Shown here: positions 7,043 to 11,976 of the stretch, piece after piece
Layout: every line of letters starts with the position of its first letter
Numbering within the stretch: position 1 is the stretch's first letter
Source of the DNA: an uncultured Eubacteriales bacterium
Lineage (GTDB): Bacteria; Bacillota; Clostridia; Peptostreptococcales; Anaerovoracaceae
Assembly (NCBI GenBank): GCA_902766915.1
Contig: CACXFN010000114.1
Span: forward strand, 1-15,929
DNA length: 15,929 nt
Reading direction: 5' to 3'
Notes under the pieces: model-generated
Databases searched by the model: none
Told to the model about the DNA's origin: nothing
The model's input: only the letters and a program-made list of their open reading frames with translations
Program-made: the position numbers and the translations under genes

Positions 7043-8797
7043 ATGACCTATTTAGAGAACTATAATCGCTGGTTGGAAAGTTCGTATATTTCAGAAGAAA
7101 CAAAGGCTGAACTCAGAACCCTTTCAGAAGATGAAATCAAGTCCAGATTTTCCGCTGAACTGGAATTTGGTACCGCAGGTATCAGAAGGGTAATGGAGGC
7201 TGGACCGGGAAGCTTAAACGAATATACCGTTAGGCATATTACCAGAGCTATTGCGGACAATCTCCTTAAAGGTGCCTCTGATACACAGCGCTTTTCTGCA
7301 GTTATTGCATATGATTCAAGAAATAACAGTAAAGAGTATGGAACAATTGCCGCTCAGGTATTGGCAGCAAGGGGGATCCATGTATTTCTCTATGAGAGTT
7401 TAAGGCCAACTCCTGAACTATCCTTTGCTGTAAGATATTCAGGATCCGCTGTAGGTATCAATATTACAGCCAGCCACAACACCAAAGAATATAATGGTTA
7501 TAAAGTTTATGGGCCTGATGGTGCCCAGATTTCTCCTGAACACGCATCCGAGATTGCAAATATAATAGCAAATACAGATATTCTGGAACCAGCTGATATG
7601 ATGGATTATCAGGAGGCTGTTTTCACAGGAGCCATTGAGGAAATCAATGGTTATTTCGATAGCATCTACAAGGGCCAGGTTTTGGCACAATCCAAATTGC
7701 CTGATGATGTTCCCAGGGATTTGAAGATTGTTTATACAGCTTTTCATGGTACCGGATTCATGTTTATCCCGGAGATTCTCCAAAGAGACGGATTTGAAAA
7801 TGTTGTATTGGTTGAAGAACAGTGTGTCCCTAATGGTGACTTTCCTACGGTGAAGAGTCCAAACCCGGAAACTGTGGAGAGTTTTGCCATGGCTATTGAG
7901 TTGGCAAGGAAAGAGAATGCTGATCTGATAATAGGCACCGATCCCGATGGAGATAGATGCGGAGTGGCAATTCCTGTTTCGGGTGGAGCCGGTCAATCTG
8001 ATAATCAGGATTATCGTGTTCTCACAGGTAATCAGATTGGAGTAATGCTTCTGGACTACCTGATTAAGGTAAGAGGTGAGGAATCTTCTGAAAAGGGTAA
8101 TAATCCATATGCCTGCAAGAGTATTGTTTCAACCAGTATGGCGAATCGCATCTGTGAAAAACATGGAATAGAAATGGTTGAGACACTGACAGGCTTTAAG
8201 TATATAGGTGAGAAGATGGAAGAACTGTCTGATCGCGAATTCATTCTGGGATTTGAAGAAAGTAATGGATACCTGACAGGACTCTATGCCAGAGATAAGG
8301 ATGCTGTTGTGGCATCCATGTTGGTCGCAGAAACCACTGCCTATCATAAGGCCCATGGAAGAACCATGGAAGAGGCCCTGAATGCCTTATACGAGGAATA
8401 CGGATACTACCTGGAGAAAGGTATTTCTAAGGGATTCTCCGGCGTAGAGGGATCCGCAGAAATGAAGAAATTCATGGAGGATATGAGAAACAACCCTCCA
8501 ACTGAAATAGCAGGAGAAAGGGTAATCAGGATTCGTGATTATTTAACTGGTGAAATACACAATTTGAATCAAACTATGGATAATGAATCCTCAGGAGACA
8601 CGGATATTTCTGCATCTCCAACAGAGAAAACCGGTCTTCCAACAAGTAACGTTCTTTTTTATGAATTAGCTGACAGATCCTCAGTGATTATTAGACCTTC
8701 CGGCACAGAGCCAAAGGTAAAATTCTATCTTTCTGCCGTTGCGGATAACAGAGCTGCTGCAGAGGCTAAGCTTGAGGAACTGATAAAGGCTTTCTAA
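7043..8797 (+). CDS. pgcA: Phospho-sugar mutase (phosphoglucomutase/phosphomannomutase)
   Basis: This alpha-D-phosphohexomutase of 584 residues resembles PgcA-type enzymes that interconvert glucose-6-P and glucose-1-P (or mannose phosphates) for glycogen and surface polysaccharide precursors. The phosphoserine loop is TASHN with Ser144. The metal loop GTDPDGDR has Asp300, 302 and 304. The sugar-specificity loop region GFEESNGYLTG and the phosphate-binding RPSGTEPK near the C-terminus are intact. The N-terminal substrate loop reads FGTAGIRRVMEAGPG, where FGTxGxRGxxGxG is expected. An insertion of about 20 Ser/Thr/Asn-rich residues (HNLNQTMDNESSGDTDIS, about 515-540) precedes the last domain. 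AGAGGA at 7032-7037 is the ribosome binding site. Substrate cannot be fixed from sequence. It sits immediately upstream of the ribozyme-controlled amino sugar operon. Confidence 0.9.
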   Translation: MTYLENYNRWLESSYISEETKAELRTLSEDEIKSRFSAELEFGTAGIRRVMEAGPGSLNEYTVRHITRAIADNLLKGASDTQRFSAVIAYDSRNNSKEYGTIAAQVLAARGIHVFLYESLRPTPELSFAVRYSGSAVGINITASHNTKEYNGYKVYGPDGAQISPEHASEIANIIANTDILEPADMMDYQEAVFTGAIEEINGYFDSIYKGQVLAQSKLPDDVPRDLKIVYTAFHGTGFMFIPEILQRDGFENVVLVEEQCVPNGDFPTVKSPNPETVESFAMAIELARKENADLIIGTDPDGDRCGVAIPVSGGAGQSDNQDYRVLTGNQIGVMLLDYLIKVRGEESSEKGNNPYACKSIVSTSMANRICEKHGIEMVETLTGFKYIGEKMEELSDREFILGFEESNGYLTGLYARDKDAVVASMLVAETTAYHKAHGRTMEEALNALYEEYGYYLEKGISKGFSGVEGSAEMKKFMEDMRNNPPTEIAGERVIRIRDYLTGEIHNLNQTMDNESSGDTDISASPTEKTGLPTSNVLFYELADRSSVIIRPSGTEPKVKFYLSAVADNRAAAEAKLEELIKAF

Positions 8798-8808
8798 AAG
8801 AAATATAA

Positions 8809-8853
8809 AATAACCCCTCGCGGAAGGAGGTGCGTAGGGATTGAGTGGTTATT
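8809..8853 (+). promoter_or_regulatory. Hairpin 5' of the ribozyme cleavage site
   Basis: AATAACC (8809-8815) is complementary to GGTTATT (8847-8853). Inside it, CCCT+CGC (8815-8821) faces GCG+AGGG (8832-8839) with one bulged T; the two stems share C8815. The apical loop displays GGAAGGAGGT (8822-8831), a near-perfect Shine-Dalgarno. The outer stem ends one base before the predicted cleavage site. No T-run follows, so it is not an intrinsic terminator. The minimal ribozyme needs essentially one nucleotide upstream, so this structure has another role or is incidental. A TATAAAAT-like -10 at 8804-8811 is possible, but no good -35 is seen. Confidence 0.45.
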
Positions 8854-8996
8854 AGCGCCTGGCCCATTATGGGTGACGAGGAATGGCAATTATCGAAAGA
8901 TTCGGCGGATGTTGCCACGGCTTATCATGATAATGATATGTGGGTCGATAGGAAGAAGGTAAAAAACAGAATAAAAACTGTAACAAAGATTCTTCC
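8854..8996 (+). ncRNA. glmS ribozyme (GlcN6P-activated self-cleaving RNA)
   Basis: The RNA cleaves itself when GlcN6P binds as cofactor, lowering expression of the downstream mRNA. The core matches the glmS ribozyme as in Bacillus subtilis: AGCGCC (8854-8859, cleavage expected between A8854 and G8855), GACGAGG (8875-8881), TTATCGA (8890-8896) and TTCGGCGGATG (8901-8911). P1 is a minimal hairpin, CCCA/TGGG with a TTA loop (8863-8873). P2 is TGGCAA/TTGCCA (8884-8889 with 8912-8917). CGCC (8856-8859) is complementary to GGCG (8904-8907), as expected for the core pseudoknot. P3 begins at CGGC (8918-8921). P4 is GGAAGAA/TTCTTCC (8951-8957 with 8990-8996), enclosing ACAG/CTGT (8966-8969 with 8978-8981) and the AACAAAG motif (8982-8988). 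The next gene, 41 bases later, is not glmS. Confidence 0.95.
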
Positions 8997-9037
8997 AACA
9001 CTAACTAAATAGAATTAGATAAGGAGATATCAACTTT

Positions 9038-9739
9038 ATGTATAAAATAACTGATCTATATGATTTAGATCATAGCTTGGCCGGAGACTATCTCCGACAG
9101 TTTGAATACCCATGGGAGGCCCTAAAAGGCATCAAGGAATTAATTCTGGAGTTAGGACAATCCCTGGAATCCAGGTTCCCCGGTGAATATGAGGAAAGAG
9201 AACCAGAGGTTTGGGTTCATAAAACTGCTACGGTTTTCCCCTCTGCTTATCTGGGTGCACCATGCATAATAGGTCCAAATACTGAAGTGCGTCACGGTGC
9301 CTTCATCCGTGGCTCCGCCCTTGTTGGTGCAGACTGTGTGGTTGGAAACAGTGTGGAGTTAAAGAATGTAATTCTATTCGATCACGTTCAGACTCCCCAT
9401 TACAATTATGTTGGTGATTCAATACTTGGATATTACAGTCACATGGGAGCCGGCTCAATCACGTCCAACGTAAAGGCGGATAAGCAGCTGGTGGTGGTAC
9501 ACAACGATCAAGGCGTAGGAACCGAAGACGGTGCACCGGAACAAATAGAAACGGGCATCAAGAAATTTGGGGCAATGCTGGGTGATCATGTGGAAATAGG
9601 CTGCAACGCGGTCTTGAATCCCGGTACTGTAATTGGACGTAATTCCAATGTATATCCAACCAGCTGTGTTCGCGGAGTTGTTCCGCAAAACAGCATTTTC
9701 AAGGTTGGCGGAACAATTTCGCCTAAAAAACAAGATTAG
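9038..9739 (+). CDS. Left-handed beta-helix acetyltransferase, GlmU C-terminal-like (probable GlcN-1-P acetyltransferase)
   Basis: This 233-residue protein has a short helical N-terminus (about 1-55) and then hexapeptide repeats of the left-handed beta-helix type (about 60-225). It matches the GlmU acetyltransferase half: residues equivalent to E. coli GlmU Glu349, Lys351, His363, Tyr366 and Asn386 are seen as E107, K109 (SVELKN), H121, Y124 (HYNYVGDS) and N144 (GAGSITSN). The N-terminal nucleotidyltransferase domain with its GxGTRM motif is absent. Databases often name such clostridial proteins UDP-GlcNAc pyrophosphorylase, which the domain content does not support. AAGGAG at 9021-9026 is the ribosome binding site. 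It is the first gene after the ribozyme, followed by nagB and glmM. This supports acetylation of GlcN-1-P to GlcNAc-1-P, an inference from context and residues. Confidence 0.85.
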   Translation: MYKITDLYDLDHSLAGDYLRQFEYPWEALKGIKELILELGQSLESRFPGEYEEREPEVWVHKTATVFPSAYLGAPCIIGPNTEVRHGAFIRGSALVGADCVVGNSVELKNVILFDHVQTPHYNYVGDSILGYYSHMGAGSITSNVKADKQLVVVHNDQGVGTEDGAPEQIETGIKKFGAMLGDHVEIGCNAVLNPGTVIGRNSNVYPTSCVRGVVPQNSIFKVGGTISPKKQD

Positions 9740-9806
9740 CGGAACAATTATGCAAAAAGAATAAGTTTGGCGGAAGAGTTTGGCCTAAAAAAGATTACAA
9801 GATTAA
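9708..9806 (+). repeat. Degenerate triple repeat at the 3' end of the acetyltransferase gene
   Basis: Three related units follow each other: gcggaacaattt...cctaaaaaacaagatta (9708-9738), gcggaacaatta...aaaaagaataa (9739-9764) and gcggaagagttt...cctaaaaaagattacaagatta (9770-9806). The first holds the last codons and TAG stop of the acetyltransferase gene; the other two are non-coding spacer before nagB. The second creates a four-codon ATG frame (9750-9764). The pattern suggests local tandem duplication of the gene end followed by drift. Confidence 0.65.
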
Positions 9807-9820
9807 TAGAAAGGATTAAT

Positions 9821-10621
9821 ATGCGCGTAGTAATACAGGATAATTATGAGAAAATGTGCCAGTGGGCAGCAAATTATATTCAAGATAAAATCAATGAACA
9901 TGTGGAGTTCTTTGAGACACGTCCATTCGTTTTGGGTCTTCCCACAGGCTCCAGCCCAATAGGAGTTTATCAGGAACTCATAAAGAAGAATAAGGCGGGG
10001 GAATTGTCCTTTGCCAATGTTGTAACATTCAATATGGATGAATACCTGGGGCTTCCTCGTGAGCATGACCAGAGTTATTGGTACTTCATGCATGACAATT
10101 TCTTTGATCATTTAGTGGATATGAAACCTGAGAATATCAACATTCTGGATGGTATGACTGATGATCCGGAAGCAGAATGTGCTAGATATGAAGGGAAGAT
10201 TGCCAGCTATGGCGGAATCGATTTGTTCATGGGCGGTATCGGTGTTGATGGACATTTGGCATTTAATGAGCCCTTTACATCACTTACCAGTAGAACTGGA
10301 TTGAGAGACCTAACCACAGATACCAGAATTGTCAATTCCAGATTTTTTGATAATGATCCGGAAAAGGTTCCTGCTAAGGCTTTATCCGTTGGAATCGGTA
10401 CAGTTATGGATTCTAGAGAGGTTCTGGTTTTAATATCCGGCCACAATAAGGCGCGTGCCCTGGCTGCCACAGTGGAGGGTAATGTCAGCCACAAGTGGAC
10501 ATGCTCAGCACTTCAGATGCATAATGGAGCAATCATTGCTTGCGATGAAGAAGCATGTGGTGAATTGACGGTAGATGCGTACAAATACTTCTTGGATATT
10601 GAGAAAAAGGAGCGACTGTAA
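9821..10621 (+). CDS. nagB: Glucosamine-6-phosphate deaminase/isomerase
   Basis: NagB reversibly converts GlcN6P and water to fructose-6-P and ammonia. The protein has 266 residues, the same as E. coli NagB. LGLPTGSSP (38-46) binds phosphate. NMDEY gives Asp73, and GVDGHLAFNEP gives Asp143, His145 and Glu150, the catalytic set. Residues that bind the GlcNAc6P activator in E. coli (Arg158, Lys160, Thr161) appear as Gly160, Arg162 and Asp163 here, so that allosteric site is probably absent. The ATG at 9821 has AAGGA (9811-9815) 5 bases upstream; an upstream in-frame TTG at 9767 would add a non-homologous tail. The stop overlaps the glmM start by one base (TAATG). Under a GlcN6P-repressed ribozyme, a biosynthetic direction is plausible. 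Confidence 0.96.
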   Translation: MRVVIQDNYEKMCQWAANYIQDKINEHVEFFETRPFVLGLPTGSSPIGVYQELIKKNKAGELSFANVVTFNMDEYLGLPREHDQSYWYFMHDNFFDHLVDMKPENINILDGMTDDPEAECARYEGKIASYGGIDLFMGGIGVDGHLAFNEPFTSLTSRTGLRDLTTDTRIVNSRFFDNDPEKVPAKALSVGIGTVMDSREVLVLISGHNKARALAATVEGNVSHKWTCSALQMHNGAIIACDEEACGELTVDAYKYFLDIEKKERL

Positions 10622-11976
10622 TGGGAAAGTATTTCGGAACTGATGGCTTCAGAGGGGAGGCCAATAAAGATTTAACCTTTGAGCATGCCATAAAAATAGG
10701 TCGCTTCCTGGGATGGTATTATGGATCTAAACAGGATCCGGAAAAGCGAGCAAAGGTCCTAATAGGAAAGGATACTCGCCGTTCCAGTTATATGTTTGAG
10801 GACGCTCTCTGTACCGGCCTAATAGCCAGTGGGGCGGATGCTCATATAATGCATGTAACCACAACACCGTCGGTTGCTTATATAACCAGAATAGATGATT
10901 TTGATTGCGGCATTATGATTTCCGCATCTCATAATCCATACTACGATAATGGCATCAAGCTTTTCAACGGAAACGGAGAAAAGATGGATGAGGCAACCAT
11001 TCTGGAGATTGAAAGGTATATTGATGGGGAGTTTGAGATTCCTCTTTCTGAACGTGAGTATATCGGTTCAACAGTTGACTATGAATCCGGACGTAACCGT
11101 TATATGGGTTATCTTATTTCTCTGGCCAAGTACGGATTCAAGGGAGTTAAGGTTGGTCTGGACGTTGCAAATGGCGCGGCTTGGACCATTGCCAGAAGCG
11201 TATTTGATGCACTGGGTGCCGATACATATGTGATGAATGACCATCCGGATGGTTTCAACATCAATACAGACTGTGGATCAACTCATATAGAGCATCTTCA
11301 GAAGTTTGTAGTGGATAATGGATTGGATGTCGGATTTGCATACGATGGGGATGCTGACCGCTGCCTCTGCGTGGACGAAAAGGGTAATGTCATAACCGGT
11401 GACCATATTCTATACATATATGGACTTTATATGAAGGAGCGCGATAAACTCCTGGATAATAAAGTTGTAACCACCATTATGAGTAATTTTGGTCTCTATA
11501 AGGCTCTTGATGAAATCGGAATTGAATACGAGCAAACTAAGGTAGGGGACAAATACGTTTATGAGAACATGGTGGAGAACGGATATAGAATTGGAGGCGA
11601 GCAAAGCGGACATATTATCTTTAGCAAATACGCCACAACAGGTGACGGAATTCTTACCAGCTTAAAGATTATGGAAGCAATGCTTGCAAAGAAGAAGCCC
11701 CTTTCAGAACTGGCGGCTCCCGTGGTGTTCTATCCCCAGGTACTTAAGAATGTACGAGTACACAGTAAGCCGGAAGCTCAGAACGATCCTGACGTACAGG
11801 CTGCAGTTTCAGAAGTATCAAAAGCTTTGGGTGATACGGGACGTATTCTTGTTCGTGAATCAGGTACAGAACCGGTGATTCGAGTAATGGTGGAAGCCGG
11901 GGATGATGAAACCTGTGAGAAGTATGTAGATCAAGTAATAGAAGTAATTAGAGCAAAGGGGCATATTTCAGAGTAA
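10621..11976 (+). CDS. glmM: Phosphoglucosamine mutase
   Basis: GlmM interconverts GlcN6P and GlcN1P on the route to UDP-GlcNAc for peptidoglycan. It has 451 residues, typical length. The N-terminal FGTDGFRGEAN (5-15), phosphoserine loop ISASHNPYYDNGIK with Ser103 (E. coli Ser102), metal loop DGDADR with Asp242, 244 and 246, the GEQSGH sugar-binding loop and the C-terminal RESGTEPVIRVMVE are all present. Its ATG shares one base with the nagB stop, so the two are translationally coupled. AAGGAGCG at 10607-10614 is the ribosome binding site. Together with the acetyltransferase and NagB it makes a compact amino sugar operon behind the ribozyme. Confidence 0.96.
   Translation: MGKYFGTDGFRGEANKDLTFEHAIKIGRFLGWYYGSKQDPEKRAKVLIGKDTRRSSYMFEDALCTGLIASGADAHIMHVTTTPSVAYITRIDDFDCGIMISASHNPYYDNGIKLFNGNGEKMDEATILEIERYIDGEFEIPLSEREYIGSTVDYESGRNRYMGYLISLAKYGFKGVKVGLDVANGAAWTIARSVFDALGADTYVMNDHPDGFNINTDCGSTHIEHLQKFVVDNGLDVGFAYDGDADRCLCVDEKGNVITGDHILYIYGLYMKERDKLLDNKVVTTIMSNFGLYKALDEIGIEYEQTKVGDKYVYENMVENGYRIGGEQSGHIIFSKYATTGDGILTSLKIMEAMLAKKKPLSELAAPVVFYPQVLKNVRVHSKPEAQNDPDVQAAVSEVSKALGDTGRILVRESGTEPVIRVMVEAGDDETCEKYVDQVIEVIRAKGHISE

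Follow-up and report, generated by a model that had tools for sequence, protein, structure and literature searches.

The glmS ribozyme is the textbook case of one RNA class serving one gene. Here, we describe a member of this class that stands before a nagB operon, in a stretch of 15,929 nucleotides from an uncultured Eubacteriales bacterium of the family Anaerovoracaceae (contig CACXFN010000114.1 of assembly GCA_902766915.1). We refer to the whole of this stretch as the window, and to genomes and loci by G and L numbers where they need to be told apart. The ribozyme and the operon behind it comprise the following features:

8843..9006, + strand: glmS-class ribozyme (RF00234), 5′ leader of the operon; covariance match and alignment with nagB-linked relatives
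8854..8859, + strand: AGCGCC, motif with the expected cleavage site; invariant in alignments of 26 and 40 sequences, some of them common to both
8875..8911, + strand: catalytic core, GACGAGG (8875-8881) ... TCGGCGGATG (8902-8911); core columns invariant, with covarying helices around the core
9021..9026, + strand: AAGGAG, likely ribosome binding site of the acetyltransferase gene, as read from the sequence
9038..9739, + strand: stand-alone GlmU-type left-handed beta-helix acetyltransferase, likely a glucosamine-1-phosphate (GlcN1P) N-acetyltransferase; NCBIfam and solved-structure matches
9821..10621, + strand: nagB, glucosamine-6-phosphate (GlcN6P) deaminase/isomerase; TIGR00502, 374.1 bits (cut-off 236.9), and solved relatives
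10621..11976, + strand: glmM; TIGR01455, 548.7 bits (cut-off 447.55)

RF00234 is the sole Rfam family matched in the window at the gathering threshold. The cmscan match lies on the forward strand, is untruncated (positions 1-167 of the 167 of the model), and scores 68.4 bits against a threshold of 37 (E = 3.2e-14). The catalytic core and the pairing are conserved, and the AACAAAG motif is also found. A preliminary description of this DNA had recognized a genuine glmS ribozyme from AGCGCC, GACGAGG, TCGGCGGATG, and AACAAAG, and the covariance score bears this out. Going by the literature on the class, self-cleavage would presumably fall between A8854 and G8855. What lies downstream is the nagB operon rather than glmS; position before glmS is a feature of the usual location of these RNAs, not of the class RF00234.

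The best NCBIfam matches of the acetyltransferase are the C-terminal parts of GlmU-type enzymes, all below cut-off (e.g., TIGR03992, positions 215-393 of 393, 132.3 bits vs. 292.1), and among solved structures it matches the C-terminal part of an archaeal dual sugar-1-phosphate nucleotidylyltransferase. It is not GlmU itself, as TIGR01173 aligns at positions 309-402 of 452 with 55 bits (cut-off 366.85) and the uridylyltransferase domain is absent. Because only C-terminal parts of GlmU-like or bifunctional enzymes match, the product is, from its sequence, most likely a stand-alone GlcN1P acetyltransferase. The start of nagB was placed by alignment at ATG 9821 (the mechanical open reading frame begins at 9767); its product aligns over nearly its full length with solved NagBs (best, 343 bits), and the last base of its stop codon is the first base of glmM. 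Neither the mechanical list of open reading frames nor family scans of six window proteins turned up a glmS in the window, so the three genes are, as described earlier, those of a GlmU-type acetyltransferase, NagB, and GlmM. Promoter-like matches number 16, vs. 10.6 (standard deviation 2.9) in shuffles, and terminator-like matches two, vs. 3.4.

The window's assembly (G000) comprises 1.44 Mb in 234 contigs and is 76.93% complete, with 3.65% contamination. On the question, raised in the preliminary description, of whether the genome holds a glmS or a second ribozyme, RF00234 occurs once in the assembly, and no glmS was found over cut-off in its 77% of the genome. The sole TIGR01135 match (118 bits vs. 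a cut-off of 418, positions 1-231) falls in a frame judged by eye to be PurF. At E ≤ 1e-90, glmM was found once, as the operon copy.

The ribozyme-nagB link is shared by many relatives. We took the best 80 of 586 confirmed NagB relatives from a NagB-alignment scan of named genomes; going by the titles, most of these are metagenome-assembled genomes, many of them with a ruminant gut site in the name (we take the RUG and RUI record names to denote rumen). An Rfam scan of the whole loci placed RF00234 over threshold at 52 of the 80, every time on the coding strand, which argues against a recent glmS loss confined to the window's strain, an alternative the preliminary description had allowed for. 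A stringent core pattern gave 53 coding-strand matches at the 80 loci (the one beyond the Rfam-positive loci being L143), none on the opposite strand of the same 727,322 bases, and one in the reversed, uncomplemented sequence. Two of the records with the arrangement, YRB3002 (L112) and P7 (L144), appear from their titles to be cultured isolates.

The order of the genes behind the ribozyme varies. Judged within the fetched stretch (contig ends truncate some loci), the ribozyme is found at 28 of 31 loci with the order nagB-acetyltransferase-glmM, eight of nine with the window's order, all three with acetyltransferase-glmM-nagB, the single nagB-acetyltransferase locus, and 11 of 18 with nagB and neither of its partners; it is found at one of eight nagB-glmM loci, none of seven with nagB-glmM-acetyltransferase, and none of three with other orders seen once each. 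The gene next to the ribozyme is nagB at 41 of the 52 loci and the acetyltransferase gene at 11, and AGCGCC lies a median of 192 bases from where the match of that next gene starts. Given the several orders, and the loci with nagB alone behind the ribozyme, nagB is what they share: it, not the acetyltransferase gene, is the common target. The preliminary description had the switch serve an acetyltransferase-nagB-glmM operon; a hexosamine operon it is, but the acetyltransferase is not a constant part of the target.

Within the family, 12 of 148 sampled genomes have RF00234, one copy each (a lower bound, as the filters were strict). The next gene is glmS in eight of them and a nagB operon in four, with the orders acetyltransferase-nagB-glmM (the window), acetyltransferase-nagB to the contig end (G114), nagB-acetyltransferase-glmM (G105), and nagB alone (G113). 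A pattern scan added a further nagB-operon ribozyme in G091; in all, five of 11 sampled family genomes with a nagB of the window's type have the ribozyme at that operon. On a tree of NagB and GlmM (90 rows, 88 labeled), the ribozyme is present in most parts, with 17 label changes, at least three of them forced by starred branches, vs. a shuffled mean of about 26; L296 was mislabeled as ribozyme-free (the pattern later found one), which leaves the 17 slightly off. The distribution fits early presence with several losses, gain and loss not being distinguishable here. At L116:4827-4926 and L128:3804-3903, a small signal recognition particle RNA gene lies just before nagB, at the position of the relatives' ribozyme.

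We aligned 40 nagB-linked ribozymes: that of the window, four genus or family copies, and 35 of the 52 named ones, with copies that have long insertions or partial matches excluded. The catalytic core is invariant across the 40, and RNAalifold gives 31 pairs, 18 of which have two-sided changes. Pairing cells amount to 96.5%, vs. 86.7% in shuffled alignments and 33-47% with slid partners. Cells with two-sided changes number 148, vs. 39.8 shuffled and 12-34 slid, and exceed all 500 shuffles and all six slides, bearing in mind that the structure was derived from the same 40 sequences and that relatedness inflates such counts. Judging by these alignments, the nagB-linked RNAs are under selection. 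In the G156 copy (L066:7526-7820; L066 and L082 are the same record), P2 and the stretch following the first stem strand hold long insertions; this copy scores 39.4 bits with its 3′ domain kept, by eye. The insertions may explain the score, and default Rfam scans may overlook copies of this kind.

Of 13 genomes in the window's genus, eight have a window-type NagB; one of these has a full GlmS (G148, 5% contaminated) and one a fragment (G150, 8% contaminated), whereas GlmS is over cut-off in all five genomes without NagB (Fisher p = 0.0047, or 0.021 with the fragment counted, relatedness being ignored). The earlier term “GlmS-free” thus suits the window's assembly and five of its seven nagB-bearing congeners, but not the named relatives, most of which encode GlmS (see below). 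Because G144 (96% complete) and G156 (90% complete) are nearly complete and have no GlmS over cut-off, incompleteness alone is unlikely as the explanation. This bears on the idea that the ribozyme and operon are contaminants, or that glmS is just missing from an incomplete assembly, for which the completeness and contamination of G000 leave some room. However, a single 15.9-kb contig holds both ribozyme and operon, the two apparent isolates have the same arrangement, and an order that includes the flanking genes (phosphoglucomutase-ribozyme-acetyltransferase-nagB-glmM-vanZ) is repeated in G156 (L082). We find such an artifact scarcely credible. In the window, the flanking genes are as follows:

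7043..8797, + strand: phosphoglucomutase-family protein, possible upstream cistron; ends 57 bases before the expected cleavage site; arrangement repeated in L066/L082
11981..12400, + strand: VanZ-family membrane protein gene, by family scan; a relative lies downstream of glmM in L066/L082

The ribozyme starts 45 bases past the end (8797) of the first of these. The VanZ-family gene begins four bases after glmM; in G156, the related gene comes behind glmM after a gap.

A glmM was found at E ≤ 1e-90 in 14 NagB-bearing genomes of the genus or family. In 12 of them the operon copy is the sole one, the exceptions being G113 and G151, where the single copy is located elsewhere. Overall, 26 of 28 NagB-bearing genomes have one glmM; G224 has two, and none was seen in G155, whose operon runs into a contig end. 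Because its glmM is usually the only one in the genome, we take the operon to be anabolic.

The reading we lean toward, with modest confidence, is that the glmS-class ribozyme regulates the nagB operon and that NagB serves chiefly to aminate, making it an ammonia-dependent GlcN6P synthase whose product feedback the ribozyme provides. NagB would run fructose-6-phosphate and ammonia to GlcN6P, and this would feed the wall route, being converted by GlmM to GlcN1P and by the acetyltransferase to N-acetylglucosamine-1-phosphate. At high GlcN6P (e.g., via salvage), the compound would act as the ribozyme's cofactor and the leader would cleave; the operon mRNA would then be destroyed and synthesis would stop, which would be the feedback known from glmS, applied to another enzyme. 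Many relatives retain a ribozyme-less, glutamine-dependent GlmS elsewhere, often amid glutamine and nitrogen genes, which would come into use when ammonia is scarce. The ribozyme, the operon, the conservation of both, the one glmM within the operon, and the surroundings of glmS are computed results, whereas we infer the cleavage by GlcN6P, the direction of NagB, and this division of labor between ammonia and glutamine. NagB is read as a producer because an off-switch worked by GlcN6P would be self-defeating on a catabolic enzyme that consumes it, whereas on a producer it would repeat the logic of glmS. The near-exclusion of GlmS and NagB in the genus, the single glmM of the operon, the rarity of nagA beside window-type nagB, and the contexts of glmS (see below) also speak for synthesis. 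The preliminary description had a feedback switch that was re-targeted to this operon or had always served it. Its placement on a hexosamine operon agrees with ours, but it left unexplained why a “deaminase” should be switched off by GlcN6P; the anatomy of the operon suggests synthesis by NagB.

A number of observations, given in this and the following paragraphs with the rivals they bear on, weigh against this reading. The first concern absence of the ribozyme, which was not over threshold at 28 of the 80 named loci (some of them cut by contig ends) or in the congeners G144, G155, and G151, which have the operon; in G144, RF00234 was not found at the operon even at E ≤ 1. By pattern, no ribozyme was found at the nagB operons of family genomes G038, G046, G102, G117, and G135. 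The 28 loci would also suit a relic, that is, a glmS ribozyme stranded before other genes by rearrangement and without function, as would the score of the window's copy, which falls below the 87.1-105.7 bits of the family's eight glmS-linked ribozymes, and the matches of just 110 and 90 bases at L138 and L150. A relic is nevertheless very improbable in our view, given the invariant core and the covariation above both controls, the spread over most parts of the NagB and GlmM tree, and the unfailing coding-strand orientation.

Another concerns the distribution of NagA, the search for which covered 24 genomes. It is over cut-off in five of the six genus genomes with NagB and no GlmS (G000, G144, G153, G155, and G156) and in none of the five congeners with GlmS and no NagB, which is the pattern expected of a catabolic or salvage role, and genes that look transporter-like by eye lie beside the NagA gene in G144 and G156. 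There is also a precedent: Akkermansia muciniphila has, like the window's assembly, NagB and no GlmS, and according to the passages of PMC5902328 compared here, its NagB makes no GlcN6P at physiological conditions and N-acetylglucosamine is needed (those passages mention no ribozyme). Amino-sugar salvage is the main rival to ammonia-dependent synthesis. It would make NagB a catabolic deaminase, with N-acetylglucosamine yielding GlcN6P via NagA, part of this going to the wall through GlmM and the acetyltransferase and the surplus to glycolysis, and with the ribozyme trimming the whole operon. We think this unlikely, although it deserves to be taken seriously. The ribozyme would switch NagB off as its substrate builds up; NagA is not over cut-off in six NagB-bearing genomes (G105, G113, G114, G151, G148, and G150); and nagA is linked to a window-type nagB at one locus in 80 only, the fetched flanks of the other 79 having shown none, whereas it lies beside nagB at three of five ordinary nagB loci. 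Most of the named relatives, having GlmS (59 of 80), would need no salvage.

Residues say less about direction. Unlike the E. coli type, the window-type NagB does not have the allosteric site for N-acetylglucosamine-6-phosphate: the positions taken as E. coli Arg158 and Lys160 read G and R in all 80 NagBs (the numbering is inferred from the motif, and the residue list is from passages of PMC4281351). However, the ordinary NagBs of the family are also without those residues, so their loss speaks only weakly for synthesis.

GlmS itself provides the remaining counterpoints. In the family sample, eight genomes have both NagB and GlmS, three NagB only, 115 GlmS only, and 22 neither (p = 0.40), and GlmS is over cut-off in 59 of the 80 named NagB-bearing genomes (40 of 50 plus 19 of 30), namely those of 39 of the 52 ribozyme-bearing nagB loci and of 20 of the 28 others. 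A general exclusion between GlmS and the nagB operon is therefore rejected, as eight of 11 family genomes and the 59 named ones have both. What does differ is the neighborhood of glmS. Glutamine or nitrogen genes (glutamine synthetases, glutamate synthase, asnB, pyrG, guaA, carAB, and a PurF-like amidotransferase) lie within 7 kb of glmS in 26 of 36 contexts from NagB-bearing genomes, chosen by hand among the matches listed for 67 genomes (at least one of them in both sets), vs. one of 32 contexts from NagB-free genomes (20 picked along the score list and 12 already at hand). With both flanks at least 6 kb and PurF-like proteins excluded, the counts are 11 of 15 vs. 0 of 18. Conversely, cdaA or cdaR is near glmS in 0 of 36 vs. 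20 of 32. The references for the glutamine genes came from NagB-bearing contexts (for PurF, from the window's genome) and those for cdaA and cdaR from a NagB-free congener, a choice that could tilt a weak comparison. The pyrG, guaA, asnB, and gltB products are over cut-off and a GlnA-type protein is below its own; a 696-aa protein that we take to be a type III glutamine synthetase has no NCBIfam match at 1e-30.

It is important to note that the GlmS tree splits the NagB-bearing and NagB-free groups almost fully, with four changes; there are three independent pairs, and a sign test is not significant. With so few changes, the contrast in context amounts to few evolutionary events and is confounded by ancestry. 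The frequent co-occurrence of GlmS and NagB, the 26 of 36 glmS contexts near nitrogen genes, and the reversibility of NagB in the species studied would all be at home with a bidirectional valve, whereby NagB follows ammonia and GlcN6P levels, the ribozyme merely caps operon expression, and neither direction is “the” function. Alone, such a valve does not explain the near-exclusion of GlmS and NagB in the window's genus, and we rate it as quite improbable.

Some further observations on glmS loci may be recorded. By pattern, a ribozyme stands before glmS at one of 50 glmS loci of the named NagB-bearing genomes. This one (L229) disproves the proposition that no glmS of a NagB-bearing genome has the ribozyme; the nagB locus of the same genome (L142) has no match, as if the ribozyme occupied one place or the other. 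Pattern matches at glmS loci L300, L301, and L303 were judged on inspection to be chance, and contig coordinates identify the match at L185 as the ribozyme of L110's convergent nagB. In a few cases glmS adjoins the nagB operon: ahead of the ribozyme in L101:16-1685, on the same strand behind glmM in L084:3826-9796 and L152:5001-9703, and convergent with the operon in L110:4831-7746. These four are possible intermediate states. The lone exception among the controls is G126 (L293), which has no window-type nagB at E ≤ 1e-60, yet has its glmS amid glutamine and nitrogen genes. In three congeners (G011, G095, and G149; L073, L074, and L079), a raiA RNA (RF03072) lies a few kilobases from cdaA-cdaR-glmM-glmS.

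In known systems, the glmS ribozyme stands before glmS, as in Clostridioides difficile (passages of PMC11477304). The nagB-linked RNAs share the family, core motifs, and fold of such ribozymes, and would share the product feedback if NagB aminates; they differ in having nagB downstream, with the acetyltransferase gene and/or glmM, and 49 of the 50 glmS loci of NagB-bearing genomes are without a ribozyme by the pattern used. Like E. coli NagB, the window's protein scores over the TIGR00502 cut-off and aligns over nearly its full length with solved NagBs, but its operon partners are glmM and the acetyltransferase gene rather than nagA, and the two basic allosteric residues are replaced. NagB reportedly rescues E. 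coli glmS mutants at high ammonium (the work of Vogler and co-workers in 1989); NagB would replace GlmS in both cases, although that of E. coli is a laboratory suppressor and not a natural regulated operon. Giardia lamblia, which has no GlcN6P synthase, makes GlcN6P by NagB according to passages of PMC4281351, in which no ribozyme is mentioned. That NagB is eukaryotic and serves the cyst wall, and its amination is biochemically shown, whereas that of the window's NagB is proposed; Giardia thus sets a precedent for NagB working in this direction.

Among the matches listed in full-text literature, considered by title and the start of the abstract, there was no glmS ribozyme before nagB; the surveys of McCown et al. 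(2011, 2012) lie outside this scope, so earlier reports of copies away from glmS are possible. The passages compared of PMC2258182, which speaks of glmS genes downstream, and of PMC3766115, which counts 44 copies, contain no occurrence of nagB; passages of PMC9495176, PMC10668854, and PMC11602151 were also included. Provisionally, we regard the nagB placement as new.

The RNA is therefore of a known kind in an unusual, conserved place, and is more widespread than the window alone shows. The nagB-linked copies occur in dozens of bacteria, including many of rumen or gut origin. They are natural variants of the ribozyme, and they point to another way of making a compound that peptidoglycan requires. 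They also matter for antibiotic ideas that target the glmS ribozyme, since the enzyme under its control is not the same in all bacteria; and because at least two records appear to be cultured isolates, the arrangement can be put to the test. More tentatively, and with belief somewhat short of even, we suggest that NagB, run in reverse on free ammonia, may replace GlmS as the housekeeping entry to wall synthesis across a broad group of Clostridia from rumen and gut, governed by a ribozyme that moved from glmS to nagB; GlmS would have been lost (in a large part of the window's genus) or retained amid nitrogen-assimilation genes as a backup that depends on glutamine. If this is true, “deaminase” would be a misleading annotation for many nagB genes.

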